Shown here: positions 8,605-61,934 of the stretch, in pieces
Position numbering within the stretch: position 1 is the stretch's first letter
How the letters are laid out: every line of letters begins with the position of its first letter
DNA from: an uncultured Kushneria sp.
GTDB lineage: Bacteria; Pseudomonadota; Gammaproteobacteria; Pseudomonadales; Halomonadaceae
DNA: 64,000 nt
NCBI RefSeq assembly: GCF_947497025.1
Contig: NZ_CANMFC010000001.1
Span: forward strand, 496,001 to 560,000
Direction: 5' to 3'
Translations under genes and position numbers: made by a program
Notes under the pieces: model-generated
What the model was told of the DNA's origin: nothing
Database searches by the model: none
What the model saw: only the letters and a program-made list of their open reading frames with translations

Positions 8605-8779
8605 GGCGGCCCTTTTGATCAACGTCTGGCTACCTTAACGCGCCGTGCAGGAGCAGACGAGCGCTGGTGTAAGGGCGAAAAGGCCTGATGGTCATGGTAG
8701 ACTCGCCGCTGTCGTTGGCATTACCCCGACAGGGGCGATGTTGTCGGGTCTGATAGGGCTCTTCTGCAGGGGAGGTTGC

Positions 8780-9583
8780 ATGTTTCATCATCCGCAGTTT
8801 GATCCGGTAGCGGTCTCGCTTGGACCGCTGGCCATTCACTGGTATGGCCTGATGTATGTGGTGGGCTTTGTCGGCGCCTGGTGGCTGGCCCGCGTGCGCG
8901 CCGAGCGACTTGGGCTGACAAGGGACCAGGTCGGTGACATCATTTTTTACGGCGCCCTTGGGGTAGTGCTGGGTGGGCGTATAGGTTACGCCATCTTTTA
9001 CGGCTGGGAGCAGTTTCTGGCCAACCCGCTCTGGCTTTTCAAGGTCTGGGAAGGCGGCATGAGCTTTCACGGCGGGCTTATCGGCGTGCTCATTGCGTCA
9101 CTGCTTTATGCGCGTCGTCATCAGTTGACCTTTTTTCAGCTCACTGACTTTATTGCGCCGATGGTGCCCATCGGTCTGGGCGCCGGTCGACTAGGTAACT
9201 TCATCAATCAGGAACTGCCCGGACGCGTGACGGATGTGGCCTGGGGCATGGTGTACCCTCTCTATGGCCCCGAGCCGCGTCACCCTTCCGAGCTTTACGA
9301 GTTTGCCCTTGAGGGCGTGGTGCTATTTTGCATTCTCTGGAGCGTCTCGCAGACGCCGCGTCGGCGTGGGCTGATCTCGGGACTGTTTCTGATCTGCTAT
9401 GGCGCCTTTCGCTTTTTTGTCGAGTTCTTCCGCCGGCCCGACCCGCAGCTTGGCTTTATCGCTTTCGACTGGCTGACCATGGGTCAGCTGCTGTGCATTC
9501 CCATGTTGCTTTTGGGAGTGGTGCTGGTCATCTGGTCGCGTCGTCAAAACGTTGACGACGCGCGTTCTTCTTCACGGATATAA
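8780..9583 (+). CDS. lgt: Prolipoprotein diacylglyceryl transferase Lgt
   Basis: This 267-residue inner-membrane enzyme transfers diacylglycerol from phosphatidylglycerol to the lipobox Cys of prolipoproteins. It shows the conserved HWYGLMY stretch, [12 protein letters not shown], the His-containing [10 protein letters not shown] and the Lgt signature [15 protein letters not shown], over about seven membrane segments. The ATG at 8780 follows GGGGAGG; more upstream in-frame starts would add non-conserved sequence. It is followed directly by thyA and folA, a conserved gammaproteobacterial arrangement. Confidence 0.96.
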
Positions 9584-9596
9584 ACGGTTCAAGTAC

Positions 9597-10391
9597 ATGC
9601 AGCCCTATCTCGAACTCATGCAGCAGGTGCTCGATCATGGCGTGGAAAAGCATGATCGTACGGGCGTGGGGACGCGCGCCATTTTTGGTCATCAGATGCG
9701 TTTTGATCTCTCGCAGGGCTTTCCGCTGCTGACCACCAAGAAGCTGCATCTGCGCTCGATCATTCACGAGCTTCTCTGGTTTTTAAGCGGCGATACCAAT
9801 ATTGGTTATCTCAAGGACAATGGTGTTTCGATCTGGGATGCCTGGGCCGATGATGACGGCGAGCTGGGTCCGGTCTATGGCTATCAGTGGCGCAGCTGGC
9901 CCTCGCCCAAAGGCGGGGAAGTGGATCAGATCAGCCGGGTCATCGAGCAGATCAGGACCCACCCCGATTCCCGGCGCCTGATTGTCTCGGCCTGGAATCC
10001 GGCGCTGGTCGATGAGATGGCGTTGCCGCCCTGTCATGCGCTTTTTCAGTTCTTTGTGGCGGAGGGCAAACTCTCCTGCCAGCTTTATCAGCGCAGTGGC
10101 GATATCTTTCTGGGGGTACCGTTTAACATTGCAAGCTATGCGCTGTTGACCCACATGGTGGCTCAGGTGTGTGATCTGGCACCGGGGGAATTCATTCATA
10201 CGCTGGGTGATGCGCATCTCTACAGCAATCACATGGAGCAGGCGCGCCTTCAGTTAACGCGTGCCACAAGGCCGCGGCCCACACTCAGGCTCAATCCTGA
10301 CGTGAAGGACATTTTTGCCTTCCGCTTTGAAGACATCGCCATCGACGACTATGACCCCCACCCGCACATTCGCGCCCAGGTGGCCGTCTAA
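9597..10391 (+). CDS. thyA: Thymidylate synthase
   Basis: A 264-residue ThyA, exactly the usual length, methylating dUMP to dTMP with methylene-tetrahydrofolate. The catalytic Cys is in [12 protein letters not shown], the dUMP phosphate-binding Arg region is [12 protein letters not shown], and the nucleotide-binding region includes [18 protein letters not shown]. The ATG at 9597 ([12 protein letters not shown]) gives the canonical N-terminus. It lies 13 bp after lgt and directly precedes folA, which regenerates the folate it oxidises. Confidence 0.97.
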
Positions 10392-48465: not shown

Positions 48466-48489
48466 TTGTGCGAGTGTAAATGCAGTGAG

Positions 48490-48767
48490 AACCCGGTGTG
48501 GTGTCTGGTTGGCATTGATGAAAAGAGCGGGTGATTGCTTCCACCATGGTGGGGTTTAGCAGCCACCGTGACTGGCTCTATTACCTGACGGTGGATCACA
48601 ACAGGCGGCGATGCGGTCATGGCTGTGTTTTGGTTGGCAAGCGGAAAATCATGCTGATGGTGCGCTGTGGTCAGCCGGTGCTGGAGGCGTATTACCGTGC
48701 ACCGGGCTTTGAGGAAAACGGGGTCGTGATGATGGGAAAACGAATGATCGAGGACGATCAGGTTTGA
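48490..48767 (+). pseudogene. Decayed GNAT acetyltransferase fragment
   Basis: The reading NPVWCLVGIDEK (48490-48525) runs into a stop, while a shifted frame continues ERVIASTMVGFSSHRDWLYY and then LTVDHNRRRCGHG. This is the middle of a GNAT of the YpeA-like group. About a dozen residues expected between the acetyl-CoA loop (CGHGCVLV) and the next strand (KIMLMVRCG) are missing, as is the N-terminal third. The end, RAPGFEENGVVMMGKRMIED, is recognisable. So there is at least one frameshift, one internal deletion and an N-terminal loss. It borders the satellite element on its left. Confidence 0.72.
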
Positions 48768-48783
48768 AGCATGAGGGAAGGGC

Positions 48784-48803
48784 TGGCGCCCAGCAGGATT
48801 CGA
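48784..48803. other. Candidate left attachment site of the satellite
   Basis: TGGCGCC-CAGCAGGATTCGA resembles the 3' end of the tRNA-Arg gene at 61858-61879 (TGGCGCC-CC-CAGCACGATTCGA) in the same orientation, with a 2-base gap and one mismatch. It lies exactly where base composition falls from GC-rich to AT-rich. The copy is imperfect, so this is a decayed or secondary site if correct. Confidence 0.5.
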
Positions 48804-49046
48804 TTTTTGGTATAAGCTACTGTTTTTTTTAGAATAATTGTTTTGTGTTAATAATGGTTATACCAAGAGATATACCATTAAGCTGCATTGATTGCTTATT
48901 GGGGGGGGGATCCGAATCATGCCAGCGCGAGCAGGGCTGGCCGCTTACGGCCAGGGAAGGCATGACGCTAGAATAGATATAACGGCCGTCTCAAGCGCCG
49001 ATTGGAGCCGCATAGCGGCGAAAAATTGGTCACTGCACAGAGGGTT

Positions 49047-50411
49047 TTAGGGTTTTTTTATAATTAACGATGGAACAACTGGCAGGCCGCACCACTCAGC
49101 TATTTTATTATATTTGGCGGCTATTTCACTAAAAATTTCCCAGCCAGATTCTACTTTATTTATGGCGTTGTGAATCTCGCTACCATCATCAACAACTTTA
49201 TCAATTAGCCGCTTAAATTTACTCATGGCAGGCGATTTTCGGACAGATGCAGGGTCGTTATCAGCTTCAACAGTCGCTAATGAACCCTCGAGCTCACTCA
49301 GTGCGAAATATGCATCATTCGATCTTGGTAGTTCTTCCATAAGCTCATTTATACTTCCCAAAGCCGATGCTATATCATGATTTATTGCAACATTACTTGA
49401 CAATGTTATTTCAGGTTTAAAGTCAATTGAAACCTGATGCTTTTGTGATAATCCATTACCTACAATGCTAAGCAGTTGATCTATACGATTGTTCTGCATT
49501 CCAATTAAATCTTGCTGTGACTCAAGCCTAAATTGTGCAATTCTTAGCTCGTTCTTGAGTTCAAGAATAAGCTTATCACTCTTAGCGAACTTTTCAGGTG
49601 GTTCAACTCCAGAAACAATCAGTTCGTATTCATGTAATGCCTTTTCAACTGTTTCTGAATGACCGCTCTCAGTCTCTATGATCATTCTTACATTTAAACC
49701 ATTTTGTTCAATTTTTACTGAGGCGCTTTCTTCAGGATATTGCTCTCTAAGATAAGTCCCAAAGAAATTTAGAATATCTAAGCCAGCCTGATGATATTCT
49801 GGAGGGAATACAATGCATCTATCCACAACCGAACTGTTTTGCTCGACATAAGCATCTGCCTCAAGTTCAATGATTTCAGGATCTTCAATCATTATATGAT
49901 CTGAATATCCAATTATTAAGAAGGGGTATTGATGACTTAGAGGCGACAAAAGCTCAAGCTGCCCCAAATTCATCTCAAATGTTTCCCTTCTCATCCAAGG
50001 GGAATTTGCATTTCGTGCAAAATCACGAATTGGTATTAACATGATTGGAAGTTTTATAAGTCCGTGCTTCACAGCTACAGCACTCTGCTGGAAAAGCCAT
50101 CGGCTTAGGTGATCAAAACTACCAAACGGAAATGAAACGCTGAGGCCTTTTTTTGTCGGACCAAGCCTTCCAATATTTATTCGTCTGCCATCTGACGAAT
50201 AATGTGTTCTATCAATAAGCTCCCATCCCCTGTCATATAGCGATTTCTCCCATTCTTCGCGCGGGTTCTTCCTGCCAGATTCAGTCTCAATTTCAACTCT
50301 GCCAGCAATAAAATCATCAAGTGCATCCATGATTTCAGATAATTCGGAAGGGTTTTTTTCGCATGTGCTATTCCATGAATTTTTGAAACTGATGACTTTA
50401 TGAATGAACAT
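49047..50411 (-). CDS. Protein with inactive BglII-like nuclease fold and coiled coil
   Basis: A 454-residue soluble protein, AT-rich gene. Residues about 50-170 resemble BglII/BstYI-type restriction endonucleases: EEWEKSLYDRGWELIDR, then FPFGSFDHLSRWLFQQSA and IKLPIMLIPIRDF. However, the segment that carries the catalytic E-x-Q in BglII reads SVSFPFG here, so no metal site is seen. Residues about 215-270 form a compact alpha/beta region (SVKIEQNGLNVRMIIETESG). About 275-320 is a coiled coil. The C-terminus has KYNKIAEWCGLPVVP, a pattern I recall from accessory, defence-like proteins. It is downstream of a SieB-like membrane-protein gene. Function unknown; a sensor or DNA-binding role is inferred. 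Confidence 0.5.
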   Translation of the reverse strand: MFIHKVISFKNSWNSTCEKNPSELSEIMDALDDFIAGRVEIETESGRKNPREEWEKSLYDRGWELIDRTHYSSDGRRINIGRLGPTKKGLSVSFPFGSFDHLSRWLFQQSAVAVKHGLIKLPIMLIPIRDFARNANSPWMRRETFEMNLGQLELLSPLSHQYPFLIIGYSDHIMIEDPEIIELEADAYVEQNSSVVDRCIVFPPEYHQAGLDILNFFGTYLREQYPEESASVKIEQNGLNVRMIIETESGHSETVEKALHEYELIVSGVEPPEKFAKSDKLILELKNELRIAQFRLESQQDLIGMQNNRIDQLLSIVGNGLSQKHQVSIDFKPEITLSSNVAINHDIASALGSINELMEELPRSNDAYFALSELEGSLATVEADNDPASVRKSPAMSKFKRLIDKVVDDGSEIHNAINKVESGWEIFSEIAAKYNKIAEWCGLPVVPSLIIKKP

Positions 50412-50484
50412 GATTTCTCTCTGTTTACTTTGAGTATAAAATCAAGGCTCAAGCCGCGATTTATGGGGGTTCAGTAGTGGCTTG

Positions 50485-51306
50485 TTAGCCATTGCTCTCT
50501 TCTGGTTTTTTCGTAAAAACTGTTTCAATTGCAGATTTAGCCATGGGGTCAATGACATAAGTGTAGTTTCTTTGAGGTTGAGCAAATATTATGCTTTTTG
50601 AATAGCTCGAAAATATCCGCTCATTGTCATAGTATTGACTGCCAGTCGATGTGCGATTTAATCTCTTTGTTTTTATAGAGCTTCTAGAGAGAAACTCTTG
50701 GAAGTACCGTGCATCTTCTGCCTGGATACCTTCAAAGAATCTAACTAATGAATTGAACTTAATTTCGTCAAATTTACGCCATAGCTCATTATCCAAAATA
50801 TCCTTTGCTATAGTAGTTAGTGATGCGGATTCATAATGTTCTCCAATAGCTGGTGTGTAAATAATTTTAAGGCTTTTTAATGTGAATAAAGGTGCTCCTT
50901 TTTTGATTTGAACATGATTTTGCCTTTTTAGTTCTTGGATTATATAAAGCTGGAATATGTCCAGTGTTTTAAATGCACTGCGTATGTTTTCTCGATTTTT
51001 TAAGCTCTCGGATTCTGCGTTTCTGGCATTTTCGGCAGCCTTTTCCAATTTTACTTTTTCTTTTTGGCGGTTCTGGAAAGAAGAGTATATGAGCCCTATT
51101 AAACTGTAGACCAATCGAACCAAGGTAATAAACACCAATCCTCTTAAGAATTTTTTAGTCACAGGGTCAATTTCGACTAAATCTTTAGAGGTACAAGCTA
51201 GAATCGCTAACGAAACAACAAATATGGCTATATTTAGTCTTATGTCCTTCGCTTTTGTAAGCAGATCCAAAATTTCTTTAAAACCCTGCACTAATATTTG
51301 CTCCAA
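50485..51306 (-). CDS. SieB-like two-helix membrane protein
   Basis: A 273-residue protein with two membrane helices (about 22-38 and 55-75), a basic coiled coil (about 78-110, QKEKVKLEKAAENARNAESE) and a cytoplasmic domain of about 160 residues. The layout, and the region AFKTLDIFQLYIIQELKRQN, recall superinfection-exclusion protein B of lambdoid phages, which aborts infection by other phages. Similarity is weak. AT-rich like the following gene, 73 bp downstream, with which it probably forms an operon. Confidence 0.45.
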   Translation of the reverse strand: MEQILVQGFKEILDLLTKAKDIRLNIAIFVVSLAILACTSKDLVEIDPVTKKFLRGLVFITLVRLVYSLIGLIYSSFQNRQKEKVKLEKAAENARNAESESLKNRENIRSAFKTLDIFQLYIIQELKRQNHVQIKKGAPLFTLKSLKIIYTPAIGEHYESASLTTIAKDILDNELWRKFDEIKFNSLVRFFEGIQAEDARYFQEFLSRSSIKTKRLNRTSTGSQYYDNERIFSSYSKSIIFAQPQRNYTYVIDPMAKSAIETVFTKKPEESNG

Positions 51307-51464
51307 ATAGATAGGTAACAGGTAATTAGACTGAGTGCTCGTTTATTGATTTGAACGTGCATGCGCCCTTCCTCAGACTATGTGCGCTTGGTTGCAAGTG
51401 GTCAGCTTTTTAAAAGCCTGCCGAAAAATTTTCTACATCAGCTGGCCGCACCCCACTCGTTGCT

Positions 51465-51946
51465 CTATTCAAACCCACCGCCCCCCTTGTGTCGGGCGTC
51501 AGTAAGCGCATTATTTTTTAGGCCCTCTAGTCGCCCTCGCAGCCCGGTAAAGGCGAGCCTTGGCATCCTATGTGACGTAGCATCAAAGCACATCCATTTA
51601 GTGCGCTGGCAGATTACGGCTCGATAAATCCCGATGGTTATATCAGTGAACAATTACGTCTGTTGCTCGCCAAAGCGTGGATAAAAACAGGACCAGCACC
51701 AGAGTATGCGACGAGCTTAAACGCTGGTCGGCCATAATTCTTTTCACTCGCCCGGCGCGCTGTCGACTCCCCGCCCCGCCTGCGCGCTAAATGGGTCGGT
51801 TTTATTGCACCCTTGCAAACGGCACCGATCCGCGCCAGTACTGGGCCGCGCGGCGGTTTTATGGTCCCAAAAAGCCTTGCGTTTCCTTGCATCTCACACC
51901 TGCCACATAAGGCGGTACGGGGTGAAAAGCCGGCTTTCCTGCGCAC
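51465..51946 (-). pseudogene. Frameshifted Icd/Ash-like satellite protein
   Basis: Two overlapping minus-strand frames join into one sequence. The first (51946 to 51638) ends VAYSGAGPVFIHALASNRRN. The second (to 51465) reads RTKWMCFDATSHRMPRLAFT then GLRGRLEG and KNNALTDARHKGGGGFE. Phrases like these are, to my memory, typical of Ash/host-cell-division-inhibitor Icd-like proteins found in P4-type elements. The frame changes between them, so the gene is broken or uses a shift. The rest of the roughly 900-bp gap (51307-51464 and 51947-52224) has no gene I can support. Confidence 0.42.
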
Positions 51947-52224
51947 GTTGCCGTTGTGATCAGAAAACGGGTGGCCCTAGCGGTCCTCGGCAAGCTCTAA
52001 AAGTCTTTTCAGCACAATATTCGAGCGCACTGATTAAGTAAAGTTGTGTAACGGGTGGATGAGACAAAAGGAGCACCCATTACGAACCCCCTCGCTCGCC
52101 AGAGTGGAATGATTACGTCCTGATTTGGCCTGTTTCGGGCGCCACGTTATGTGGGGTAATGGCTCGGTCACCAGAACGTTTGATTCGTGAGATGGGGAAG
52201 TGATGGGAGGGGCAGGGTTAATCT

Positions 52225-53085
52225 CTATTCCTTGAAAAACCTGAGCAGGGCATTTGCCAGTGCTTCTGGTGCTTCCTCGGCCATATGGTGGCCGCAGTCG
52301 ATACCTCGACCCGTGAGCGTGGTCGTCCATGGCCGCCACACTTCCAGCACATCGCCATAAAGTCGCTCCAGATCATCACGCAGTGACCACAGCACCAAGG
52401 TAGGGCACTGGAGTCGCCGGCCTTGCTCTCGATCCTCTCTGTCATGCAGGTGATCAATGCTCATCCCTGCGCGGTAATCTTCGATCATGCCGTGCACAAC
52501 ATCCGGATCGTGGATGGCTTTTCGAAAGTCGGCGTAGGATTCAACTCCCATGGCTTTTTCGCTGCCGCCATACCATGCATCGGGATCGGCAAGAATGGCT
52601 CGTTCCGGTTTCTCTGGCTGGGCGAAGAAGAACCAGTGCCACCACTCGGTGGCAAAGCGGTCATCACAGCGCTCCAGGGCTTCCAGAATCGGGACGCCAT
52701 CCAATATGGCGGCGCGCTCGATGGCGTCTGGATAATCCATGGCAGTGCGAAAGGCGGTATAGCTGCCACGGTCGTGCCCTACAATCGTGAAGCGATCAAA
52801 CCCAAGATGATGCATCAGCTCGATACAGTCGCGTGCCTTGGCGCGTTTTGACGAATTTGCATGATCCGGCGTATCTGCCGGCTGGGATGATTGGCCGAAA
52901 CCTCTAAGGTCCGGGCAGATCACGGTGTAGTAGGGGGCCAGTAGCGATGCGACTCGGTGCCAGGTGGCATGTGTACGTGGATGACCGTGTAGCAACAGCA
53001 CCGGAGGGCCGGAGCCGCCGTATCTGACGCGCAGGGTCGCTTCAGACAACTCAACAATTTCAAGCTGGAATCCTTCGAACATCAT
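52225..53085 (-). CDS. Alpha/beta hydrolase, haloacetate-dehalogenase-like
   Basis: A 286-residue hydrolase: oxyanion loop LLLHGHPRTHATW, nucleophile Asp105 in IVGHDRGSYTAF, WHWFFFAQPEKPE (His150/Trp151, the halide-pocket pair of fluoroacetate dehalogenases) and the catalytic His in IDCGHHMAEEAP. In true fluoroacetate dehalogenases the nucleophile motif reads HDRGGR, with a second carboxylate-binding Arg; here that position is Tyr109, so the substrate may differ. AAGGGAGAG precedes the two candidate ATGs (53085, 53082). A passenger gene of the satellite, next to the iteron region. Confidence 0.72.
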   Translation of the reverse strand: MMFEGFQLEIVELSEATLRVRYGGSGPPVLLLHGHPRTHATWHRVASLLAPYYTVICPDLRGFGQSSQPADTPDHANSSKRAKARDCIELMHHLGFDRFTIVGHDRGSYTAFRTAMDYPDAIERAAILDGVPILEALERCDDRFATEWWHWFFFAQPEKPERAILADPDAWYGGSEKAMGVESYADFRKAIHDPDVVHGMIEDYRAGMSIDHLHDREDREQGRRLQCPTLVLWSLRDDLERLYGDVLEVWRPWTTTLTGRGIDCGHHMAEEAPEALANALLRFFKE

Positions 53086-53255
53086 TCTCTCCCTTAAATG
53101 ACTTGAGCCCGGTCAATAGAGAGTAGTGTCAATCGCTAATCCTTTTCGCTCGCTAGAACGAAATGATCATGCCTCAACCCAGCCGTTTCTTGACTCTCTC
53201 TTGTTGAGACTGATTCCCATTCCCCTGATACGTTTTCACATCTGTGATTTTGGGG

Positions 53256-53477
53256 TGGCAACACTGGCAACAGTGGCAACAAGGCTCAACCATGCGGGTT
53301 CCAGAGCGGCAACACTGTTGCCAGTCAAAAAGTCACTGGCAACAGAATGAGGGTGAAAAGCCCCCTTATGGTGTGGTGTTGCCAGTTGTTGCCACTCTTT
53401 AGTGTTTTACTGGCAACGCGGGAACCCGCCTGTGGCGCGGCTTTCAGCGATGTGTTGCCTTGTTGCCAGTGTTGCCA
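53256..53477. repeat. Iteron array, probable replication origin
   Basis: Twelve copies of the octamer TGGCAACA or close variants. Forward copies start at 53256, 53265, 53274, 53307, 53337 and 53411. Inverted copies (TGTTGCCA) start at 53316, 53377, 53387, 53453, 53461 and 53470. The outer groups are tandem triplets with 8-9 bp period in opposite orientation. GCGGGTTCC (53294-53302) and GGAACCCGC (53421-53429) add a 9-bp dyad inside. It lies just beyond the end of the primase-helicase operon. P4 replication proteins act on iterons (ori and crr), so an origin is the natural reading. The 572-bp gap contains no credible gene. Confidence 0.75.
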
Positions 53478-53657
53478 CTCGATTCAGGTTCCTGTGGCGA
53501 TTCTTCCTCACCGTTCCGGCGCTCGATAAGGATCGTCTGGCCATCTTTACCGCCGGTTTTGGCGATCCTTTCCCTTGGCGAGCGAAGGGGTTTAGGGGTT
53601 CCCTGCCAAAACGCAAAAGGGCCGCCCGAAGGCAGCTCCTGTTGGCATGACTCGTTT

Positions 53658-54440
53658 TCAGTGGGTCTGCTGATGCAGCGCCCGCTGCTGAAGGCTGTTT
53701 TTTGGGCCGCTGTATTGCTGCTCGCAGGCCAGTAGTGGCACGACACGCAGCACGGTCAGGCTTTCCGGTGCTGCCGGCGTCTCCTGTTCCGGATCGATCC
53801 GGCGGGTGAGCCCCATCAGGCGTTCGGCCAGCTTCTGCTGGAAGCGCTTCGCCAGCTCCTCATCGATCCGTGCGCGGTGATCAGCGGGACCGTCATTCTG
53901 ATGGTTCGGCTCGCTCATCACATCATGATCGGTCTTGCGCTTGACCTCCGGCAGCAGGGACAGCAGATGGCGCCCCTCGGGCAGATCCAGCAGCGCGGCG
54001 GTGGCCTTCTCGAAGGCCTGCTCAACCTCCAGCCCCCAGGCTTGCTGCCGGGCAACCTCATACTTGCGGCGGGCATCGATCACGGCGATGTGCTGCTCGA
54101 TCAGCGGCGCCTGCAATTCGCCGGACATGGATTCCAGCTCTTCGGCGGTCTCGCGGCTTTCACTGACCGAGCGTTTGATCTGCCGAATCTCCTTGGTCAG
54201 CTCACCGTTGCTCTCGCGCAGCAGGTCGCGCCAGCGGCGATCGTTGCTATCGGCTTCTTCCCGGGCCGCCGCTGCGCCCTTGCTGAAGCGCTCGACGCGC
54301 TGTTGCAGGTCGGTCAGCGTCTCGCGTTGGCTCAGGTACTCGTTTCGGGTCTGTTCGTGTCGGGTCATGTGGCTGGCCATGGGGGCAGCTCCTTCCTGTG
54401 GGGTGGCTTTGGTCGTGGTCCGGGCGTTGGCAGCAGTCAT
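53658..54440 (-). CDS. Coiled-coil protein of the satellite replication operon
   Basis: A 260-residue, strongly helical, charged protein (LTDLQQRVERFSKGAAAARE, then ESMSGELQAPLIEQ) with no membrane helix or enzyme motif; the last 90 residues are polar. I chose ATG 54440 because GGAG lies seven bases upstream. It is the last gene of the operon after the DUF927 helicase. Its position and coiled coil recall P4 Psu or Sid-type structural modifiers, but no sequence similarity is certain. It could equally be a replication accessory factor. Confidence 0.55.
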   Translation of the reverse strand: MTAANARTTTKATPQEGAAPMASHMTRHEQTRNEYLSQRETLTDLQQRVERFSKGAAAAREEADSNDRRWRDLLRESNGELTKEIRQIKRSVSESRETAEELESMSGELQAPLIEQHIAVIDARRKYEVARQQAWGLEVEQAFEKATAALLDLPEGRHLLSLLPEVKRKTDHDVMSEPNHQNDGPADHRARIDEELAKRFQQKLAERLMGLTRRIDPEQETPAAPESLTVLRVVPLLACEQQYSGPKNSLQQRALHQQTH

Positions 54441-54514
54441 GGGGCGTCTCCATGTGGTGGATGAGGGGACAGCCCTGGGGCCGCCCCGGTTTGCGGGGGT
54501 GAAGGTGAGCCGGT

Positions 54515-56290
54515 TCACTGGACGCCGCCCACGGGTTCCAGTTTGTCGGGATCGATGACAAAGAAGCGGGCACTGCCGCCGCCGGGCAGGCGGTAGTTCT
54601 TCTGTTTGCGCCCTTCATCCATGCGAGCCAGCACGTCATGTATGCCCAGGGTGCGAAGGATGCGGTCGCGGCTGTAGCCCGGAACGGCTTCAACCAGTGC
54701 GGCGCGGTTGAACAGGTAGAGCCGCTGGCCGTTGTCGATCTCGTAATAGCCGGCGCGGCTATTCACATGGGCGGCCATCTGGGCGTTGACGTCCGAGAAG
54801 CGGCTGTCGCCATGCAGGGCAATGAAGTCGGCCAGCGCGGTGAGGATTTGCCGATCTTCGGCGTTGCCGTCGCCGATGGTGGCCAGCCATTCCATGAACA
54901 GCAGCCGGCAGGCCTGAATGGCGGTTTCCGGTGGCCACGGCAGGATTCCCCATTCACTGGCCAGCTCCCCGGCCAGTGCCATGACCGCAAAGCGATCCGC
55001 GACGCGCCCGGCCTGCGAGCTGGTGACGTTGAAGCGTTTGCGGATCTCACCAAAGCGCCACGGCAGGCCGTTGGCGGTTTCCTCATCGATCAGGTGTTCC
55101 ACCAGTGCCGGCCCGGCATGGCCGTAGTGTTTGGCCACGGCGCCGGTGAGGGTGCGGTGGAAGGTTTCGCCATCCATACCGTGCACATCATCAAAGGCGC
55201 GGTATTTCCGGGTGCCGGCGTTGATGTCCACCATGCGCAGTTCGGCGCCGGCGTGTGCCGTGCTGCCGCCCATGGCCGCGTGATCGGAGAGCGAACGTTC
55301 GCCGCTGGAAAGGGCCAGCAGACGCCAGTAGTTTTTCGGGCGTCCCTCGCGCTCGCGGGTCATGGTGCCCTTGCCGGTGCCGTTGGCAATCGCGTAGGCG
55401 TGGCCCTGTATCTGCTTCGGGCTGGCCCGGCTCATCTCGTCGTTGATCATCACCGTGTCATTGCGCGAGGACGCCTCGATCTCGACGCCCCCGCCGGACA
55501 TGTCCCACGACACCTTGAAGCGATCCGGTGGCCCCCAGACAGTCGCGGCCACGTCCTGTGCCAGTGACTTGCCGCTGGAGGAATCACCCACCAGATGAAT
55601 GCCGCCGCCGTTGACGCCTACCTTTTTCAAAAGCGGGCCGGCCAGTGCGCAGCAGACCGACAGGATCAGCACCGGGTTGCCCAGGCATGGGGTGGCCACG
55701 TCCGTCTGCCACTCGACAAGCGTGCCTTTCGTGTCGAAGATCTTCGCCTCGCGCCCCGAACTCTGGAACCGTACCCGGGTGCTGCCGATGATCCGCTCGG
55801 GCAGCACGAAGGCGCCGCTGCGCTCATGCCAGCCGGGCCGCGTGGTGGTTTCGAGCACCACATCGGGGGTGTGGTGGCTGGCCACGAACGCCGGAATGTA
55901 CTTGCGGTGGTGGTAATCGACGATCAGCCCCTGTCGCATCAGCGGCTTCAATACGTCGTCACCCTTGCCGGCCAGTGCCTCCATGGGGATGACGTATTCC
56001 AGTTCGCGGCCCCGGTGATAAAAGCGCACCAGCCGCCCGATGCTGCCGTCGTCGCTGTCGATGGTCTCGGCCTCGATATACAGCGGCGAGCAGATCCACA
56101 GGTCGAACGGCTGGCCGGGTTCGTCCGGCGAGGTCTGCTTGATGCCGTGATACCAGGTGCCGGCACGGTAGAGTCGCCCGTCGATGTTCACCGGGCCGTC
56201 GTAGGTGGCAAAGCCGGGCCGGGTGATGCCTTCGCGCTCGGGCACGTTGGGGTTGCCCACCAGTGAGAGGTGCGGTTCCTGTTGGCTCAT
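54515..56290 (-). CDS. DUF927 superfamily helicase/ATPase
   Basis: A 591-residue protein. Residues about 60-190 are an N-terminal region with WICSPLYIEAETIDSDDG. The ATPase core has Walker A GDSSSGKS at 235-242 and Walker B TVMINDE ending at Glu285, then a sensor-like LLALSSGERSL. The C-terminal 100 residues look like a winged-helix module. DUF927 proteins in P4-like elements are the replicative helicase part that in P4 alpha is fused to the primase. The start overlaps the primase stop (ATGA), so the two are coupled. It probably acts at the iteron array. Confidence 0.82.
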   Translation of the reverse strand: MSQQEPHLSLVGNPNVPEREGITRPGFATYDGPVNIDGRLYRAGTWYHGIKQTSPDEPGQPFDLWICSPLYIEAETIDSDDGSIGRLVRFYHRGRELEYVIPMEALAGKGDDVLKPLMRQGLIVDYHHRKYIPAFVASHHTPDVVLETTTRPGWHERSGAFVLPERIIGSTRVRFQSSGREAKIFDTKGTLVEWQTDVATPCLGNPVLILSVCCALAGPLLKKVGVNGGGIHLVGDSSSGKSLAQDVAATVWGPPDRFKVSWDMSGGGVEIEASSRNDTVMINDEMSRASPKQIQGHAYAIANGTGKGTMTREREGRPKNYWRLLALSSGERSLSDHAAMGGSTAHAGAELRMVDINAGTRKYRAFDDVHGMDGETFHRTLTGAVAKHYGHAGPALVEHLIDEETANGLPWRFGEIRKRFNVTSSQAGRVADRFAVMALAGELASEWGILPWPPETAIQACRLLFMEWLATIGDGNAEDRQILTALADFIALHGDSRFSDVNAQMAAHVNSRAGYYEIDNGQRLYLFNRAALVEAVPGYSRDRILRTLGIHDVLARMDEGRKQKNYRLPGGGSARFFVIDPDKLEPVGGVQ

Positions 56291-57390
56291 TGGGCACCCC
56301 CTGTCTGGCTGGTGCTTTTGCCCTTGCCGGTGTCTTTCTTCTGGCGAGCGTGGGGTTTACCGGCCTGCGCCCGATCACGTTTGCTTTCGGCCTCGATGCG
56401 CTGACGGTGCCAGCAGTACAGGTCGTTGAAGTCGGTAGCATCTTCCGGGGCGCCTTCCGGCCACTTGGGGTACAGCACCAGCGCGCCAGCGGCGACCGCG
56501 GCGTCATTCGCCATCTTTTTGCCCGGGTTGCCTTCGGTGTGCCGGTCGTCGCCGGCGATTACCAGTTCCAGCGAGCCGTTGAGCGCCCTTTTCATATAGA
56601 GCGCCACGGCTTCCAGATTGCCGGCGTTCATGGCGCACGCCACGGGGTCACCGGTCAGACGGTGCAGGGTGGCGCCGGTGGCCCAGCCCTCGCAGACGAA
56701 CAGCCGCCCGCCGGGGATCAGGTCGCCGATCAGCGAGTAGGCGCCGGTCACCCGACCGCCTTTCAGGAAGCGCTTGCGCCCGTTGGGCATGATCCATTGC
56801 AGATTGACCAGCTCGCCATCAGCGTACAGCGGCACCATCAGCCAGCCACGCCCGGACTGGCGCAGGTTATAAACCGGCAGCCGTTTGGCGATCAGGTAGG
56901 GATGGTGGGCACTGGCGCGCTTGGCGCTGTCCCAGTAGCGCTTGGCGCGTTCGGCGGCGGCCTCGCGGTTGCGGGCCTGCTCCTGTTCCATGGCCTTTTG
57001 GCGGGTATCAAACGCCTCGATGGCCGCTTGATCCAGTACCGGCGAGGACGCGAGGGGAACGCCATTTCTTGCAGTGCGAAAGACGCCCAATCCCAGCCGC
57101 GCATCGATCTCCATGGCAGCATCGACCTGCCGGCAGCCGCGCAGGTAACTCAGAAGGGACACCAGATCACTGCCCCGGGCGTCACGGTCGGCAAAGTCGT
57201 TCCACTTGCCGCTGGTCAGCGATACCCCAAAGGAGCCGGCGTGGCGATCACCCCGGACGGTATTGCGGGCCTGCCACTCGCTGCCCTGTCGCTTGCCTTC
57301 CGGCAGCCACTCGGAGAGCAGCAGCTCGGCGTATTCCAGCGCCGCCGCGCTGACACGGCGAATCTTCGAAAAGGTCTCGTGCTCAGCCAT
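56287..57390 (-). CDS. Toprim-domain primase of the satellite
   Basis: A 367-residue protein. Residues about 35-90 resemble a primase N-terminal domain (RGDRHAGSFGVSLTSGKWND) without the zinc-binding Cys/His. A Toprim domain has the catalytic Glu in FVCEGWATG (Glu234) and the DxD-type AGDD (281-282); DATDFNDL follows. The C-terminal tail is Lys/Gln-rich. The ATG at 57390 has GGAGG seven bases upstream. It synthesises primers for satellite DNA replication together with the DUF927 helicase. Confidence 0.85.
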   Translation of the reverse strand: MAEHETFSKIRRVSAAALEYAELLLSEWLPEGKRQGSEWQARNTVRGDRHAGSFGVSLTSGKWNDFADRDARGSDLVSLLSYLRGCRQVDAAMEIDARLGLGVFRTARNGVPLASSPVLDQAAIEAFDTRQKAMEQEQARNREAAAERAKRYWDSAKRASAHHPYLIAKRLPVYNLRQSGRGWLMVPLYADGELVNLQWIMPNGRKRFLKGGRVTGAYSLIGDLIPGGRLFVCEGWATGATLHRLTGDPVACAMNAGNLEAVALYMKRALNGSLELVIAGDDRHTEGNPGKKMANDAAVAAGALVLYPKWPEGAPEDATDFNDLYCWHRQRIEAESKRDRAQAGKPHARQKKDTGKGKSTSQTGGAQ

Positions 57391-57676
57391 GGGCCACCTC
57401 CCGGCTGTGCGCGTGACCCACGGCATTCATCAGGTCGTCGGCGTCGTTGAGCAGCAGATAGGCGGCGTGAGCGATGCTGGACAGGTCGCGGCCATCGACG
57501 GCACCGCCCTTGCTTTCACTGCCCAGGGTGGTAACGGTGAACAGCATGTCGCGGGCCGCAGAGAGTCGCAGGCCGGCGCAGTCGTACAGCTCTTCAAAGC
57601 TCGCCTTGCTGTCGATCAGCATGGCCGGGCGCTTGTGGGTCGGGTGAGCGGTCAGGGGGACGTATTGATCAGCCAC
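57383..57676 (-). CDS. Small hypothetical protein upstream of the primase
   Basis: A 97-residue protein reading VADQYVPLTAHPTHKRPAML and then KASFEELYDCAGLRLSAARD. The GTG at 57676 is chosen because GGGGGTGGCCC precedes it in the same spacing as the primase start. It overlaps the primase start by 8 bp and the upstream gene by 8 bp. Helical, no membrane segment, family not recognised. Genes of this kind occur in Halomonas/Pseudomonas P4-like elements (inference). Confidence 0.6.
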   Translation of the reverse strand: MADQYVPLTAHPTHKRPAMLIDSKASFEELYDCAGLRLSAARDMLFTVTTLGSESKGGAVDGRDLSSIAHAAYLLLNDADDLMNAVGHAHSREVAHG

Positions 57677-57923
57677 GGGCCACCCCCTCACTGATCAGGT
57701 CATTCAGATCCGAGAGCAGGTCGGTGTAGTCGGCGGCAGAAATAACGCCCAGCGTGTGGGCCATGCGGGCCATGCCCACCAGTTCGGCAAACTGATCCAG
57801 ACGGCGGTTCACACGCAGCTCGATCAGACGCGAGCCGATCAGGGCAATGGCTTTCTGGGAAGCGGGAATTTCAGTATGGGAATTTTGCGGACGTGCGGAC
57901 GCACTAGAGGCATGAATAGCCAT
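57669..57923 (-). CDS. Small protein at the head of the satellite replication operon
   Basis: An 84-residue helical protein (MAIHASSASARPQNSHTEIP, ending NDLISEGVARG). AAGGAG lies nine bases upstream of ATG 57923. The frame stays open upstream to about 58298 (CCYGGCAWADFGLAGFLCGR and VRTFGDDSESHKGVRPMAI), resembling Ash-type leader reading frames of P4 elements, so a longer product or leader peptide is possible. First gene of the chain small protein - small protein - primase - helicase, each overlapping the next. Confidence 0.55.
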   Translation of the reverse strand: MAIHASSASARPQNSHTEIPASQKAIALIGSRLIELRVNRRLDQFAELVGMARMAHTLGVISAADYTDLLSDLNDLISEGVARG

Positions 57924-58076
57924 GGGACGGACTCCTTTGTGTGATTCGGAGTCGTCGCCAAACGTTCTCACGCGCTTGGAGACGACTGTGCACGGGGTGA
58001 GAAACCGGCCACAAAGGAAACCGGCCAGACCGAAGTCTGCCCATGCACAGCCGCCATAACAGCAGGTTGCGGGCAC

Positions 58077-58117
58077 AAAAAAAGCGCCTGCAATGCTATT
58101 GGGGGCGCTACTGCGCC
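58077..58117 (-). terminator. Attenuator with competing hairpins in the operon leader
   Basis: On the minus strand, GGCGC (58117-58113) can pair with GCGCC (58108-58104) to form an early hairpin. The same AGCGCC (58109-58104) can instead pair with GGCGCT (58088-58083), which is followed at once by T7 (58083-58077): a Rho-independent terminator. The two structures exclude each other. This is an antiterminator/terminator layout between the leader promoter and the replication operon. Confidence 0.62.
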
Positions 58118-58164
58118 TTTGTGAACTCGGGTTCTCACGCCCGGTCGCAGATTTTGCTGCGACC
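58118..58164 (-). ncRNA. Structured leader RNA, P4 CI-like immunity RNA candidate
   Basis: Minus-strand RNA that would begin with a perfect 8-bp hairpin GGTCGCAG / CTGCGACC (58164-58143), then GTGAGAACCCGAGTTCAC, a second imperfect hairpin, before reaching the attenuator at 58117-58077. The total leader is about 88 nt, similar in size and context to the P4 CI RNA, which causes premature termination of the replication operon. No sequence identity with P4 CI is claimed. Confidence 0.5.
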
Positions 58165-58169
58165 CTTTC

Positions 58170-58199
58170 ATCATAATCAGACCGGCCAGGACGTGGCAA
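58170..58199 (-). promoter_or_regulatory. Promoter of the satellite replication operon leader
   Basis: On the minus strand TTGCCA (58199-58194), an 18-bp spacer and TATGAT (58175-58170). Transcription would start about at 58164, the first base of the leader hairpin. The -35 element happens to share TTGCCA with the iterons. Confidence 0.5.
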
Positions 58200-58377
58200 G
58201 CCATGGCGGGACGATTTTGTCCCGGTGGCCGGTGCCGGATCTCGAAAAAAGTGCCCGGCAGCCCGTCGTGTCTCGATTTTTTCGCGTGTTGTGGGCACAA
58301 AGTCTCCCCAACCCCACCCGGTGACTACCGGGCAGCGGTGATATTCATTGGTTCAGAGGGTCAGGCGGTGGCGCGGC

Positions 58378-58632
58378 CTAGCAATCGGTCTCGATGCTGG
58401 GGCCCCGGTGCAGGTCGGTCAGCAGGTGACGATTCGCGGGGTGTTCGGCGTGATGGCCGGGTGTGGTGCTCGTCTTGTGCTGCGTGACCGACACAAAGCG
58501 CTCGCTGCCGCCGCGCACGATCTCGCGGCCAGGCAGGTTGACGGCGCCGGTCAGGGCCGAATCCATCGACTCCATGTCAGCCTCGGTAAAGTCGATGCTC
58601 TGATTGCCGATTTTCATGGTGAAGCGTTTCAT
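58378..58632 (-). CDS. Small hypothetical protein after alpA
   Basis: An 84-residue protein, MKRFTMKIGNQSIDFTEADM, with a His-rich C-terminal third (TTPGHHAEHPANRH). Its ATG overlaps the alpA stop (ATGA), so it is translationally coupled. No family recognised. It may fine-tune AlpA or the operon promoter. The remaining gap to the replication operon (57924-58377) holds the leader RNA, attenuator and promoter. Confidence 0.5.
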   Translation of the reverse strand: MKRFTMKIGNQSIDFTEADMESMDSALTGAVNLPGREIVRGGSERFVSVTQHKTSTTPGHHAEHPANRHLLTDLHRGPSIETDC

Positions 58633-58910
58633 GCGCGGGCCTCCGGTCGGGCAGTCATTTTCAGGGCGGTGTTGCGCTGGGCCAGTCGCTCGGCGATCCA
58701 GCCGTCGATCTCTTCTTCCAGCCAGGCGACGCTGTTGTCGCCAATCGGTACGGGTGCCGGAAAGGTGCCGTCGCTCACGCTCTTGTAAATCGATGAACGG
58801 CTTTTGCCGGTCTTGAGTTCCACTTCACGGCGGCGCAGCAGGCGGTTGCCCAGCTGGATGCGCTCGACGTGCCGGCAGGCGCTGGTGGTGGATGGTGTTG
58901 ATGCCGTCAT
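58629..58910 (-). CDS. alpA: AlpA-family transcriptional regulator
   Basis: A 93-residue MerR-like winged HTH protein: RLLRRREVELKTGKSRSSIY then KSVSDGTFPAPVPIG and VAWLEEEIDGWIAERL, the AlpA (phage CP4-57 regulator) signature. Such proteins activate excision/integrase expression or the satellite's lytic operon (Vis in P4). AGGAAACG precedes the ATG. A perfect inverted repeat 94 bp upstream is a probable operator. Confidence 0.85.
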   Translation of the reverse strand: MTASTPSTTSACRHVERIQLGNRLLRRREVELKTGKSRSSIYKSVSDGTFPAPVPIGDNSVAWLEEEIDGWIAERLAQRNTALKMTARPEARA

Positions 58911-59004
58911 GGGCGTTTCCTGTCGTGGTTGATTCGAGCGGCGCAGGTGCCGCCGGGGACAGGATTAGCTTGCCAAGGGATGGCGGGGACTTCGAGCGGC
59001 GCCA

Positions 59005-59028
59005 GTTGTAAAACCCGAGTTTTACAAC
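59005..59028. promoter_or_regulatory. Perfect 10-bp palindrome upstream of alpA
   Basis: GTTGTAAAAC-CCGA-GTTTTACAAC, with an extra half-site TACAAC at 59033-59038. It lies between the alpA start (58910) and the divergent Imm31-like gene (59181). Probable repressor or AlpA binding site. Nothing else but the terminator is seen in this 270-bp gap. Confidence 0.65.
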
Positions 59029-59058
59029 GAAATACAACATTCGTTGCCATCAGCGTAT

Positions 59059-59092
59059 AAAAAAGCCGCTGCGGTCTGTCGACGGCAGCGGC
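59059..59092 (-). terminator. Rho-independent terminator, minus strand
   Basis: Read on the minus strand: GCCGCTGC (59092-59085), a loop of about 12 nt, GCAGCGGC (59072-59065), then T6. It would stop leftward transcription from the integrase/delta side before it reaches alpA. Confidence 0.75.
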
Positions 59093-59180
59093 CTGGATCA
59101 GTTCAGAACTAAAGCGTGGCCATGTCGCACGCTATGAGTTCCACTTGATGATGTTCTTTTGAGCCTGGAGTTAAAGATCA

Positions 59181-59396
59181 ATGCCTAGCGATAGAATCGG
59201 TTTTTACCAGGAGGTCGAAATCTGCGCCGATGGCCAGTATCGAGGTTTGAAAGGAGCTGTCTTGGGGATCAGTGAGGAGGACGGAGTAATTTATGGCTAT
59301 GCAGTGTCGATCCACGGGAAGAGTCATCTCGTATCTTTTGACAAGGATGACCTGAGACCCACCGGGGTTTATTTCACCCGGGATGACTTTTACTGA
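59181..59396 (+). CDS. Imm31-like immunity protein
   Basis: A 71-residue protein: MPSDRIGFYQEVEICADGQY, GLKGAVLGISEED, YAVSIHGKSHLVSFDKDDLR and TGVYFTRDDFY. The order of FY..V, G..G..LG, Y.V.I, W/F.F...L, TG....R.DFY fits immunity family Imm31 of polymorphic-toxin systems. No toxin gene adjoins it. It stands alone on the plus strand in the accessory part of the satellite. Possibly protects the host from toxins delivered by neighbours. Confidence 0.55.
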   Translation: MPSDRIGFYQEVEICADGQYRGLKGAVLGISEEDGVIYGYAVSIHGKSHLVSFDKDDLRPTGVYFTRDDFY

Positions 59397-59413
59397 TTAG
59401 TGAGGCGAAAGCC

Positions 59414-60006
59414 AGGTTCTGTCTGAAAAGTCGTGGCTGCTGCGCTATCTATAGTTTGCGGCGAAGGAGAAATAGTATCCGCGATCATGTGCCAGCACTG
59501 ATATGAAGGCTCGTAACGGCCTGCCCTGGTGGTTTCCTATTTAGTGAACCATGCACGGATAAAATAACACCAACCGAGGATCAGTGTTTAAAAGAGCCAA
59601 CGATGCACGTTGTAAAGAACTACGATTTTAAACCCTTTAGATGATTGAAGGGTCCCTCTTTCAAGTCAAATCCCATATCCAAGGCCAGTTGAATTGCCTC
59701 GCGATATTCCTCGTCGGTAATAGATACATCATATTCGCAAATATGGTCACACAGAATCTCAAAAGCCAGACTTTCTTCATTATATTCAACATAATCCAGC
59801 GCCCCTTGGAGTATCGTAAACTCAAGCCTTCCCCAGAATTTCTCTCCAAATTTGACAATGCGTTCAGCGTACATAAAGACCTATTTAACGGGGCTTACAA
59901 GGAGGGACAGGTGCACCGATCAGAAAGCTTGCAACAGCCTGCCATGATAGTCTTTTGTCCAAGGAACAGGGGCAGCTTAGCAGTCATGACTTTTCAGACA
60001 GAACCT
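59414..60006. mobile_element. 593-bp unit with terminal inverted repeats, no transposase
   Basis: The left end AGGTTCTGTCTGAAAAGTC (59414-59432) is repeated exactly, inverted, at the right end (59988-60006). The match continues inwards to about 31 bp with four mismatches. The sequence resembles terminal repeats of IS5-type elements (CTGTCTGAAAA). The interior holds only the MafI-like gene, so this looks like a MITE-like or transposase-deleted unit. The right end supplies the last bases and stop codon of the delta-like gene. No clear target duplication is seen. Confidence 0.6.
59620..59874 (-). CDS. MafI-like immunity protein
   Basis: An 84-residue acidic helical protein: ILQGALDYVEYNEESLAFEI then LCDHICEYDVSITDEEYREA. 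The spacing of DY.E.NE..LA.E.LC..I.EYD..I..EEY is the pattern I know for the MafI family (immunity to Maf toxins). No Maf toxin is near. The gene is AT-rich and sits inside the inverted-repeat unit, so it may have been moved as a cassette. Confidence 0.52.
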   Translation of the reverse strand: MYAERIVKFGEKFWGRLEFTILQGALDYVEYNEESLAFEILCDHICEYDVSITDEEYREAIQLALDMGFDLKEGPFNHLKGLKS

Positions 60007-60496
60007 AGAAAATCCCCGGGCGGTACCATCGGCTTGCATACCCGTAGAACGTCAGGTGATACGCGAGCGGAGGCAGGGCGGTGATTCGAACATCAGTGCT
60101 AAAGCGCTGGCCACAGTCAGGATTGAGGCAATCGAGATAGATTGTTTTGCGGTTTTTTAAAATGCGGCGGCTGGAGCGAATCCGTAGATCGCTATCACAT
60201 TTCAAACAGGAGATACCCAACCCTTTAGGTTTTGGGTCCGGATGGTAACCATAGTTGCCTATCATGCGTCTGGGCCCAGAGCGTCGTCTCTCGTAATCGT
60301 CATGTGTTGACTGAGTACGAGGCGTCTTTAGGCTTCGATAGGTGCGGACCGGCTTTGTTTGCAATTCAGCTTTGACGCGTGCCCGGCAGTCCAGGCAATA
60401 CATGAAAGCAACATCATGGCCGTGAGCAATCCAGCCTCGATATTTTATTAACATTATGCCGCTGCAGTTAGGGCATTTCTCGCCAAAGCTAAACAT
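60005..60496 (-). CDS. Delta-like activator with two Ogr-type zinc fingers
   Basis: A 163-residue protein with two Cys4 modules: Cys8, Cys11, Cys34, Cys37 and Cys97, Cys100, Cys123, Cys128, the second with the Ogr-style C-x4-C pair (CLNPDCGQRF). P4 delta is a tandem Ogr protein of 166 residues that activates late promoters of the satellite and its P2-like helper. So this gene implies dependence on a P2-like helper phage. It lies 11 bp after the integrase in the same direction. The stop TAG falls at the edge of the inverted-repeat unit, so the extreme C-terminus may be altered. Confidence 0.7.
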   Translation of the reverse strand: MFSFGEKCPNCSGIMLIKYRGWIAHGHDVAFMYCLDCRARVKAELQTKPVRTYRSLKTPRTQSTHDDYERRRSGPRRMIGNYGYHPDPKPKGLGISCLKCDSDLRIRSSRRILKNRKTIYLDCLNPDCGQRFSTDVRITALPPLAYHLTFYGYASRWYRPGIF

Positions 60497-60507
60497 ATTC
60501 AGAAAAA

Positions 60508-61692
60508 CTATTTATTTGGGAAGACATGGGCAGCCCACGCCTGCATCATGGCCGGCCTTTGCTCGGCGGCCATGTGCTCAGCATGGGTATAGACGCCCTC
60601 GATGCCCGGCAGCTTGTGCGAGAGTTGCATCTCGATCCATTCACGCGGATAGCCCATCTCTTTTAGGCCAGTGGCCACTACATGGCGTGTACCATGCGGC
60701 ACATGCCGGCCATCAAAGCCCATACGCTTTAGAGCCATGCCGAATGCGGCATCAGAAATAGGTTTCGTCGAATCGTTGCGCCCCGGGAACAGCAGCTTAT
60801 ACCGCCCGGTCAGCGCGTATAGTTCGTGCAGGATGGCGACAGCCTGAGAGGGGAGTGGGACCTGGTGGGGGCGATCCATCTTCATGCGCTCGGCGGGAAT
60901 CTTCCAGACCTTGCCGACCAGATTGAACTCTTCCCAGCGGGCGTTGCGTAGCTCTCCAGGGCGTACTGCGGTCAGCAGCAATAACTGAAGTCCACAGCGT
61001 ATCAGCGTGCTTTTGTCGTAAGCGTTGACCGCCTGCACCAGCTCTGGCAGCTCATGCTGTGAGATATGAGCAAAGCTCTGCTTCTTGTGGCGCAGTAGTG
61101 CACTGTTCAATTCGGCCAGAGGGTTGTAGGTGGCTCGTCCGGTAATGATGGCGTAGCGGTAGATCTCGCGGCAGAAGGTCAGGATCTTGCGGCGCTGTTC
61201 AAATTTACCGGCGGCTTCAAGCCGCTTGAGCAGATCGAGCCATTCAAGGGGTTTGATATCGTCGATGGCGCGCTGACCCACATAGGGAAAGACATGGGTT
61301 TCAAGCGCCGCCCAGCTTTGTGGGCCTCGTTTGGAGGTCGATTTCCAGCGGGGCAACATGGTGGTGTGCCACTCGCCGGCCAGCACGCGAAAGGTGTTTT
61401 CAGTGGCGTAGAGCTGTTCCCGTTTTTCCTGTTTACGCTGCTCAACGGGGTCGATGCCCTGAGCCACCAGGCGTCGTGCATCGGTGCGCTTTTCTCGTGC
61501 TTCGGCCAGAGAGACTTCGGGGTAATTGCCCAGGCTCATCATGTTGCGCTTGCCGTTTGGGCGTACATAGCGAAAGCGCCAGCCCTTGCTGCCGTTGGGT
61601 GAAATCCTGAGTTCGAGTCCCAATCCGTCCGAAAGCGCTATCGGTTTCTCACCCGGCTTGGTTTTTTCGATCTTTCTGACAGTTAGCGACAT
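60508..61692 (-). CDS. int: P4-type tyrosine integrase
   Basis: A 394-residue site-specific recombinase: N-terminal arm-binding DUF4102-like domain (IALSDGLGLELRISPNGSKG), core-binding SAM-like domain, and catalytic domain with Arg244 (TAVRPGELRNARW), His333-x-x-Arg336 (HGTRH), His359 (LSHK) and Tyr368 (GVYTHAEH). All catalytic residues are present. It is 165 bp from the tRNA-Arg 3' end that it presumably uses as attB. Confidence 0.95.
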   Translation of the reverse strand: MSLTVRKIEKTKPGEKPIALSDGLGLELRISPNGSKGWRFRYVRPNGKRNMMSLGNYPEVSLAEAREKRTDARRLVAQGIDPVEQRKQEKREQLYATENTFRVLAGEWHTTMLPRWKSTSKRGPQSWAALETHVFPYVGQRAIDDIKPLEWLDLLKRLEAAGKFEQRRKILTFCREIYRYAIITGRATYNPLAELNSALLRHKKQSFAHISQHELPELVQAVNAYDKSTLIRCGLQLLLLTAVRPGELRNARWEEFNLVGKVWKIPAERMKMDRPHQVPLPSQAVAILHELYALTGRYKLLFPGRNDSTKPISDAAFGMALKRMGFDGRHVPHGTRHVVATGLKEMGYPREWIEMQLSHKLPGIEGVYTHAEHMAAEQRPAMMQAWAAHVFPNK

Positions 61693-61857
61693 CGTGGTAT
61701 ATCGAGCATCTTCGAATCTGGAATATGCCTAGCTGTATACCATTTTTATACCGGATTCGGGAAGAACGCCTAGGACTGTCTGAGAGCGTGAAGCCGCTTA
61801 AATCAAGGCTTTGGGGCGGTTTTGAAGGCTTGGGGAGGACTGCTTGGGAAGGTGCGG

Positions 61858-61934
61858 TGGCGCCCCCAGCACGATTCGAACGTGCGACCTTCCCCTTAGG
61901 AGGGGGACGCTCTATCCAGCTGAGCTATGGGGGC
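61858..61934 (-). tRNA. tRNA-Arg (anticodon CCU)
   Basis: A 77-nt cloverleaf on the minus strand: acceptor GCCCCCA / TGGGGGC with discriminator G and encoded CCA (61860-61858), D arm AGCTCAGCTGGATAGAGC, anticodon loop CTCCTAA with CCT at 61900-61898, and T arm GCACGTTCGAATCGTGC. The 3' end serves as the integration site. Gap 61693-61857 holds only the presumed attachment and arm region. Confidence 0.96.

Follow-up and report, generated by a model that had tools for sequence, protein, structure and literature searches.

A mobile protein with a catalytically dead BglII/BstYI-type domain and a Roco-type tail as a likely sensor of invading phages

The window, the whole 64,000-nucleotide stretch of Kushneria DNA that was analysed, carries a gene for a 454-amino-acid protein (49047..50411, minus strand, ATG start) built from a dead BglII/BstYI-like endonuclease domain, a conserved core, a coil-like segment and a Roco-type tail. 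The gene is firmly identified as cargo of a mobile element and as spread by mobile elements. In some relatives the N-terminal domain has been swapped as a cassette, which suggests that the protein is likely a sensor of invading phages; that it acts as a mobile anti-invader (phage-exclusion) factor is a reading to which we give an even chance.

The sequence-only reading had described this gene and its neighbour, which encodes a 273-amino-acid putative membrane protein (50485..51306, minus strand, TTG start), as an AT-rich, co-directional pair. Both are real open reading frames with 73 bp between them; inspection of the sequence favoured 51291 as the start of the second gene, where a GTG follows GGAG by nine bases and would give 268 amino acids. 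The AT-richness was borne out as well: GC content was 0.376 over 49047-51306, against a mean of 0.587 (SD 0.049) for 2,260-bp steps over the whole window, and outside about 48.5-52 kb the lowest such step was 0.500. GC3 was 0.31 in the 454-residue gene and 0.32 in its neighbour, compared with 0.82 in the DUF927 gene of the same element. The string SVSFPFG and the C-terminal YNKIAEWCGLPVVP that had been pointed out were both found in the 454-residue protein. No family in PADLOC-DB 2.0.0 matched either protein at E ≤ 10, and no family in Pfam, PADLOC, PHROGs or NCBIfam covered the 454-residue protein.

The N-terminal domain (residues 1-190; 49842..50411, minus strand) is homologous to BstYI and BglII, type II restriction endonucleases of family PF09195, over about residues 1-181. 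The window protein alone matched the Pfam family weakly (E 0.19, 11.9 bits against a cut-off of 26 bits), while a profile of 21 relatives matched BstYI in the PDB at E 5.7e-6 and the N-domains by themselves did so at E 9.3e-7; BamHI matched them much less well (0.23). In an HMM-HMM comparison with eight BglII-family proteins the N-domain scored Prob 97.1 and P 5e-11, whereas twelve controls, ten of them column shuffles and the others the core and the tail, gave P of 0.3-0.9. Seven Acinetobacter-like N-domains, put through the same test alone, gave P 5.3e-7, and they matched the other set of N-domains at P 1.1e-35. In the reverse direction, profile A1 matched a protein in genome G392 at E 2.7e-5; this protein matched PF09195 at E 2.1e-19, reads D..E.Q at the catalytic positions and is a true BglII-family enzyme. 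The earlier assignment to the BglII family is thus sound, though it could not have been demonstrated from one sequence.

The same assignment had held the nuclease to be dead, and the alignments agreed. In the former catalytic segment (residues 84-97, GPTKKGLSVSFPFG; 50121..50162, minus strand), G, S and P stand opposite BstYI D119, E128 and Q130, which we take to be the catalytic D...E-x-Q residues, with numbering from the BstYI profile alignment. None of the 20 sequences with an N-domain, the window's included, had the catalytic D and E together; a lone D occurred in the catalytic columns of L028 and, at the E position, of L030. When the window protein was paired with a 75%-identical Zhongshania relative, the N-domain showed pN of 0.16 and pS of 0.87, with synonymous sites saturated; the domain is under purifying selection and is not decaying. 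Descent of the N-domain from BglII/BstYI-type enzymes and its loss of the catalytic residues are firm. The protein differs from those enzymes in lacking the D/E pair and in being fused to a core and tail, and the window cargo contains no restriction-modification set.

Chlorobium tepidum Roco, CtRoco, is used as a bacterial model of LRRK2, the Parkinson's protein. Its C-terminal 130 or so residues (PDB 8r4b) are homologous to the C-terminal module of the window protein (residues 331-452; 49056..49421, minus strand), with an E-value of 1.3e-7 that improved to 6.7e-10 when the profile included a Roc-COR protein. The tail is all that the two have in common; no Roc or COR match was found in the 454-residue protein with Pfam. 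According to the structural report, the last 150 residues of CtRoco are without density (PMC11052575). The same module closes a Roc-COR GTPase from a Prevotellaceae metagenome-assembled genome (L014:5604-8234), a protein that also has a low-complexity stretch rich in A, D and Y.

Between the N-domain and the tail lie the conserved core (residues 195-275; 49587..49829, minus strand) and a segment assigned by eye as coil-like (residues 276-330; 49422..49586, minus strand). The core is the most conserved part of the protein, with 38-83% identity to the window's in full relatives, and it also occurs behind a different N-terminus in a protein from a phage contig (L031). Among solved structures in the PDB it had no convincing match: the best, a bromodomain protein, reached E 0.014, which is chance level, and it and the weaker matches were taken as chance. 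Bacterial TRADD-N proteins (PMC8195603) are alike in placing a middle domain between N- and C-terminal domains that vary, with REase among the N-terminal ones. They differ from the present family in that none of 16 members compared with TRADD-like_N (PF20694) gave a match at E ≤ 5, so that a TRADD-N identity of the core is not supported. For a profile-profile comparison, TRADD-N members were sought and found in none of 200 genomes, and 14 controls likewise gave none.

The gene lies in a satellite-like integrated element of about 13 kb (48783..61857, no strand assigned, limits approximate), as the sequence-only reading had proposed in placing it in a cargo position. The element contains a tyrosine integrase with Arm-DNA-bind_3 (60508..61692), which adjoins the tRNA-Arg(CCT) that served as integration target (61858..61934), an AlpA-type regulator among the ORFs scanned with Pfam and PHROGs (58629..58910), a Toprim primase part (56287..57426) and a DUF927 primase/helicase part (54515..56290), all on the minus strand. 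Integrase, AlpA, primase and tRNA integration, the marks of a P4-like satellite, are thus all present. P4-like satellites with antiviral cargo (PMC9122126) share these features and the exchangeable cargo. The window cargo differs from theirs in being undescribed, and the comparison covered integrase, AlpA, primase, tRNA site and cargo. At the left end a degenerate att-like repeat (48789-48803) has 15 bp with one mismatch, and its E-value of 1.6 is at chance level. In the congener G005 the counterpart of window 48471-48761, just left of this repeat, adjoins the same tRNA, arranged as an unoccupied integration site would be. About ten consecutive G were noted beside the left end, at about 48901-48910.

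A sister element with the same backbone was found in the congener G007 (window 54433-59015 at 87.6% identity), and neither of the two window genes was present in that genome. The matching cargo slot there holds a four-gene CBASS set (L069:8466-13549), flanked by stretches matching window 48788-48953 and 51747-52124; PADLOC identified its cyclase (E 5.1e-162), E1-E2 (3.5e-203), JAB (6.5e-74) and nuclease(-SAVED) effector (1.4e-203). The slot therefore takes defence systems, in keeping with the earlier suggestion about it. Stretches at window 51747-52124 and 53144-53623 also occur in the sister element, where they separate its cargo from its primase, and close to the G005 site. An alpha/beta hydrolase gene inside the window element (52225-53085) is absent between the matching G007 stretches.

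Searches for relatives of the 454-residue protein gave matches in 2 of 196 related genomes, the own genome counted, at 12 loci in GTDB contigs (one being the tail only), in 1 of 72,556 plasmids, in 2 of 50,697 phage records and at 14 loci in viral contigs. Dropping duplicates and two partial relatives left 22 distinct full relatives; L020 and L021 were nearly identical, and L019, a viral-contig relative with an interrupted reading frame (8001-9363), was excluded from alignments. The hosts were Gammaproteobacteria, Bacteroidota and one Betaproteobacterium (on a Polaromonas plasmid). Identity to the window protein was 54% for L007, from Bacteroidota, and only 41% for L012, from Vibrio, a pattern indicative of lateral transfer. 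The settings included prophages, a phage, the satellite-like element of the window, a plasmid that can be mobilized and an island that also carries a type I restriction gene. The Cedecea copy, used as a DNA query, had no match in 5,426 E. coli genomes. A literature survey, with most subscription papers outside its scope, looked for defence roles of restriction-enzyme-like domains that are dead or inactive and returned nothing on this family.

Two of nine pairs compared showed a clean exchange of the N-domain. Nucleotide identity between L013 (Acinetobacter) and a similar viral contig, L027, was 93% immediately upstream of the start codon, fell to 49-54% in the 600 bp that follow it and returned at once to 93% beyond them; between L010 and L020 it was 86% before the start, 44-56% over the N-part and then 80-98%. 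At the protein level the N-domain and core were 26% and 98% identical in the first pair and 24% and 89% in the second. Both exchanged kinds of N-domain were BglII-like by HMM-HMM comparison, and the two clean cases may represent replacement of a recognition module. The other seven pairs were less clean, gradual, different elsewhere or without a swap (L020/L021), and L027/L029 formed a mosaic of another kind, in which core and coil differed and the tail was 82% identical.

Such exchange could also track different restriction enzymes, if the dead domain paired with active enzymes or competed for their sites and thereby shielded the element that carries it. Carriage by phages, by one plasmid and by the satellite-like element of the window would suit such an anti-restriction role, and the genus and class of the window do contain active BglII-family genes (in 2 of 196 relatives and in 11 of 274 class genomes). 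By eye, however, the DNA-reading loop region was not conserved with BstYI; the Cedecea copy adjoins a type I restriction gene, which is another kind of enzyme; and the core and Roco-type tail would be left unexplained. We consider anti-restriction improbable.

The neighbours of the relatives varied. At five Acinetobacter or Acinetobacter-like loci (L010, L013, L020, L027 and L029) the relative is followed within 1-6 bp by the start of a multi-TM gene; there was none at that place in L011, and no close membrane partner was seen at L003, L004, L005, L006, L008 or L012. Other neighbours were a P-loop ATPase (L015), a protein with a weak SIR2_2 match under the cut-off (L009), type I HsdR and an integrase (L003) and, at L007, an AlbA/Schlafen-like protein with a PADLOC PDC-S50 match. 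Two proteins flanking the Vreelandella relative (L005:7304-7924 and 9469-9975) looked by eye to have similar strand-plus-helix ends (NIGS...NVQVGxxNT), perhaps those of a multi-part assembly.

A short HTH-like gene precedes the relative at L010, L013, L020 and L029, with a Pfam HTH match for L020 only and, for L013, no Pfam match at E ≤ 1e-3. The resulting order of HTH-like gene, soluble protein and membrane protein at these four loci resembles cI-rexA-rexB; RexAB exclusion systems have been described for lambda (RexA structure, PMC11077077) and Pseudomonas putida (PMC12894663). RexAB of P. putida is reported in the latter to damage membranes once triggered. The window family differs in having a dead nuclease family in place of the RdgC-like RexA, and in the window itself the order is reversed, with no repressor alongside. 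RexA was not among the PDB matches of the family profile at E ≤ 10, in a PDB copy that may not include it. Lambda RexA is also reported to bias the lysis-lysogeny switch (PMC11077077), and this precedent, with the HTH-like genes, would suit a protein that binds DNA to regulate the decisions of a prophage or satellite and has no role in defence. Carriage by unrelated elements and by chromosomal islands speaks against such a regulator, as does cassette exchange, which would be unusual for an element's own regulator, and the window copy occupies the place that CBASS takes in the sister element. We consider a regulator without a defence role improbable.

The sequence-only reading had instead proposed a dedicated two-gene system in the window, with the dead nuclease as sensor and the 273-residue protein as membrane effector. 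In its favour the two genes are adjacent, co-directional and equally AT-rich, and together they fill the slot taken by CBASS in the sister element. Two hydrophobic segments (residues 22-40 and 56-74) were seen by hydropathy in the 273-residue protein, and the suggested likeness to SieB was not supported, with no SieB family matching at E ≤ 1 in Pfam or PHROGs; a single-sequence structure model had a mean pLDDT of 51.2, too poor for use. Among the 196 related genomes a homologue was found only in the own genome, and none was found in the plasmids, phages or viral contigs searched. The 274 class genomes gave the protein itself and one weak match in G450 (39% over 65 amino acids, with four stops), which was taken as chance.

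Nor was the pair conserved: a homologue of the 273-residue gene adjoined none of the 22 distinct relatives, although L007 and L028 offered hardly any upstream sequence to inspect; relatives 75% and 67% identical to the window protein were among those lacking it. With a gap of 73 bp and no relative of the 273-residue protein found in the collections searched, a dedicated pair is unlikely. Homology of that protein to the membrane genes beside the relatives was also considered and rejected (P 0.19 and 0.21). A sensor with a membrane effector is possible in an altered form, with unrelated multi-TM genes at the five loci.

Under the anti-invader reading, the dead N-domain would recognise something of the invader, be it a phage protein or a site or structure in DNA. 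Recognition would be passed through the core and coil to the tail, which would assemble the 454-residue protein, and the infected cell would be arrested or would die, either through the protein alone or through an interchangeable partner, which at several loci may be a membrane protein. The 273-residue protein would be the local partner in the window, and this is the weakest step. Several observations count against a defence role: no PADLOC, NCBIfam or PHROGs family matches the 454-residue window protein, partners differ between loci and at several no close membrane partner was seen, clean exchange was limited to two of nine pairs, and the core matches nothing solved. Mobile location and exchange also count against it, because they would fit an anti-restriction or regulatory gene too.

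More tentatively, the family may exemplify a class of invader sensors in which a dead restriction-enzyme domain serves as an exchangeable recognition module and a conserved adaptor with a Roco-type assembly tail connects it to interchangeable effectors. The exchangeable domain could then be likened to type I specificity domains or to the sensor domains of NLRs. If this is true, restriction enzymes would be tied to the LRRK2-like Roco proteins of bacteria, and bacteria and their mobile elements would be reusing dead restriction enzymes as swappable sensors, not cutters; this would account for the persistence of such domains after catalysis is lost. A type of sensor that present defence catalogues miss, PADLOC having given no match, would be added. 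The structurally unresolved tail of CtRoco would gain a relative that is mobile and likely belongs to a conflict system, and the role of that tail would become testable in a small protein.
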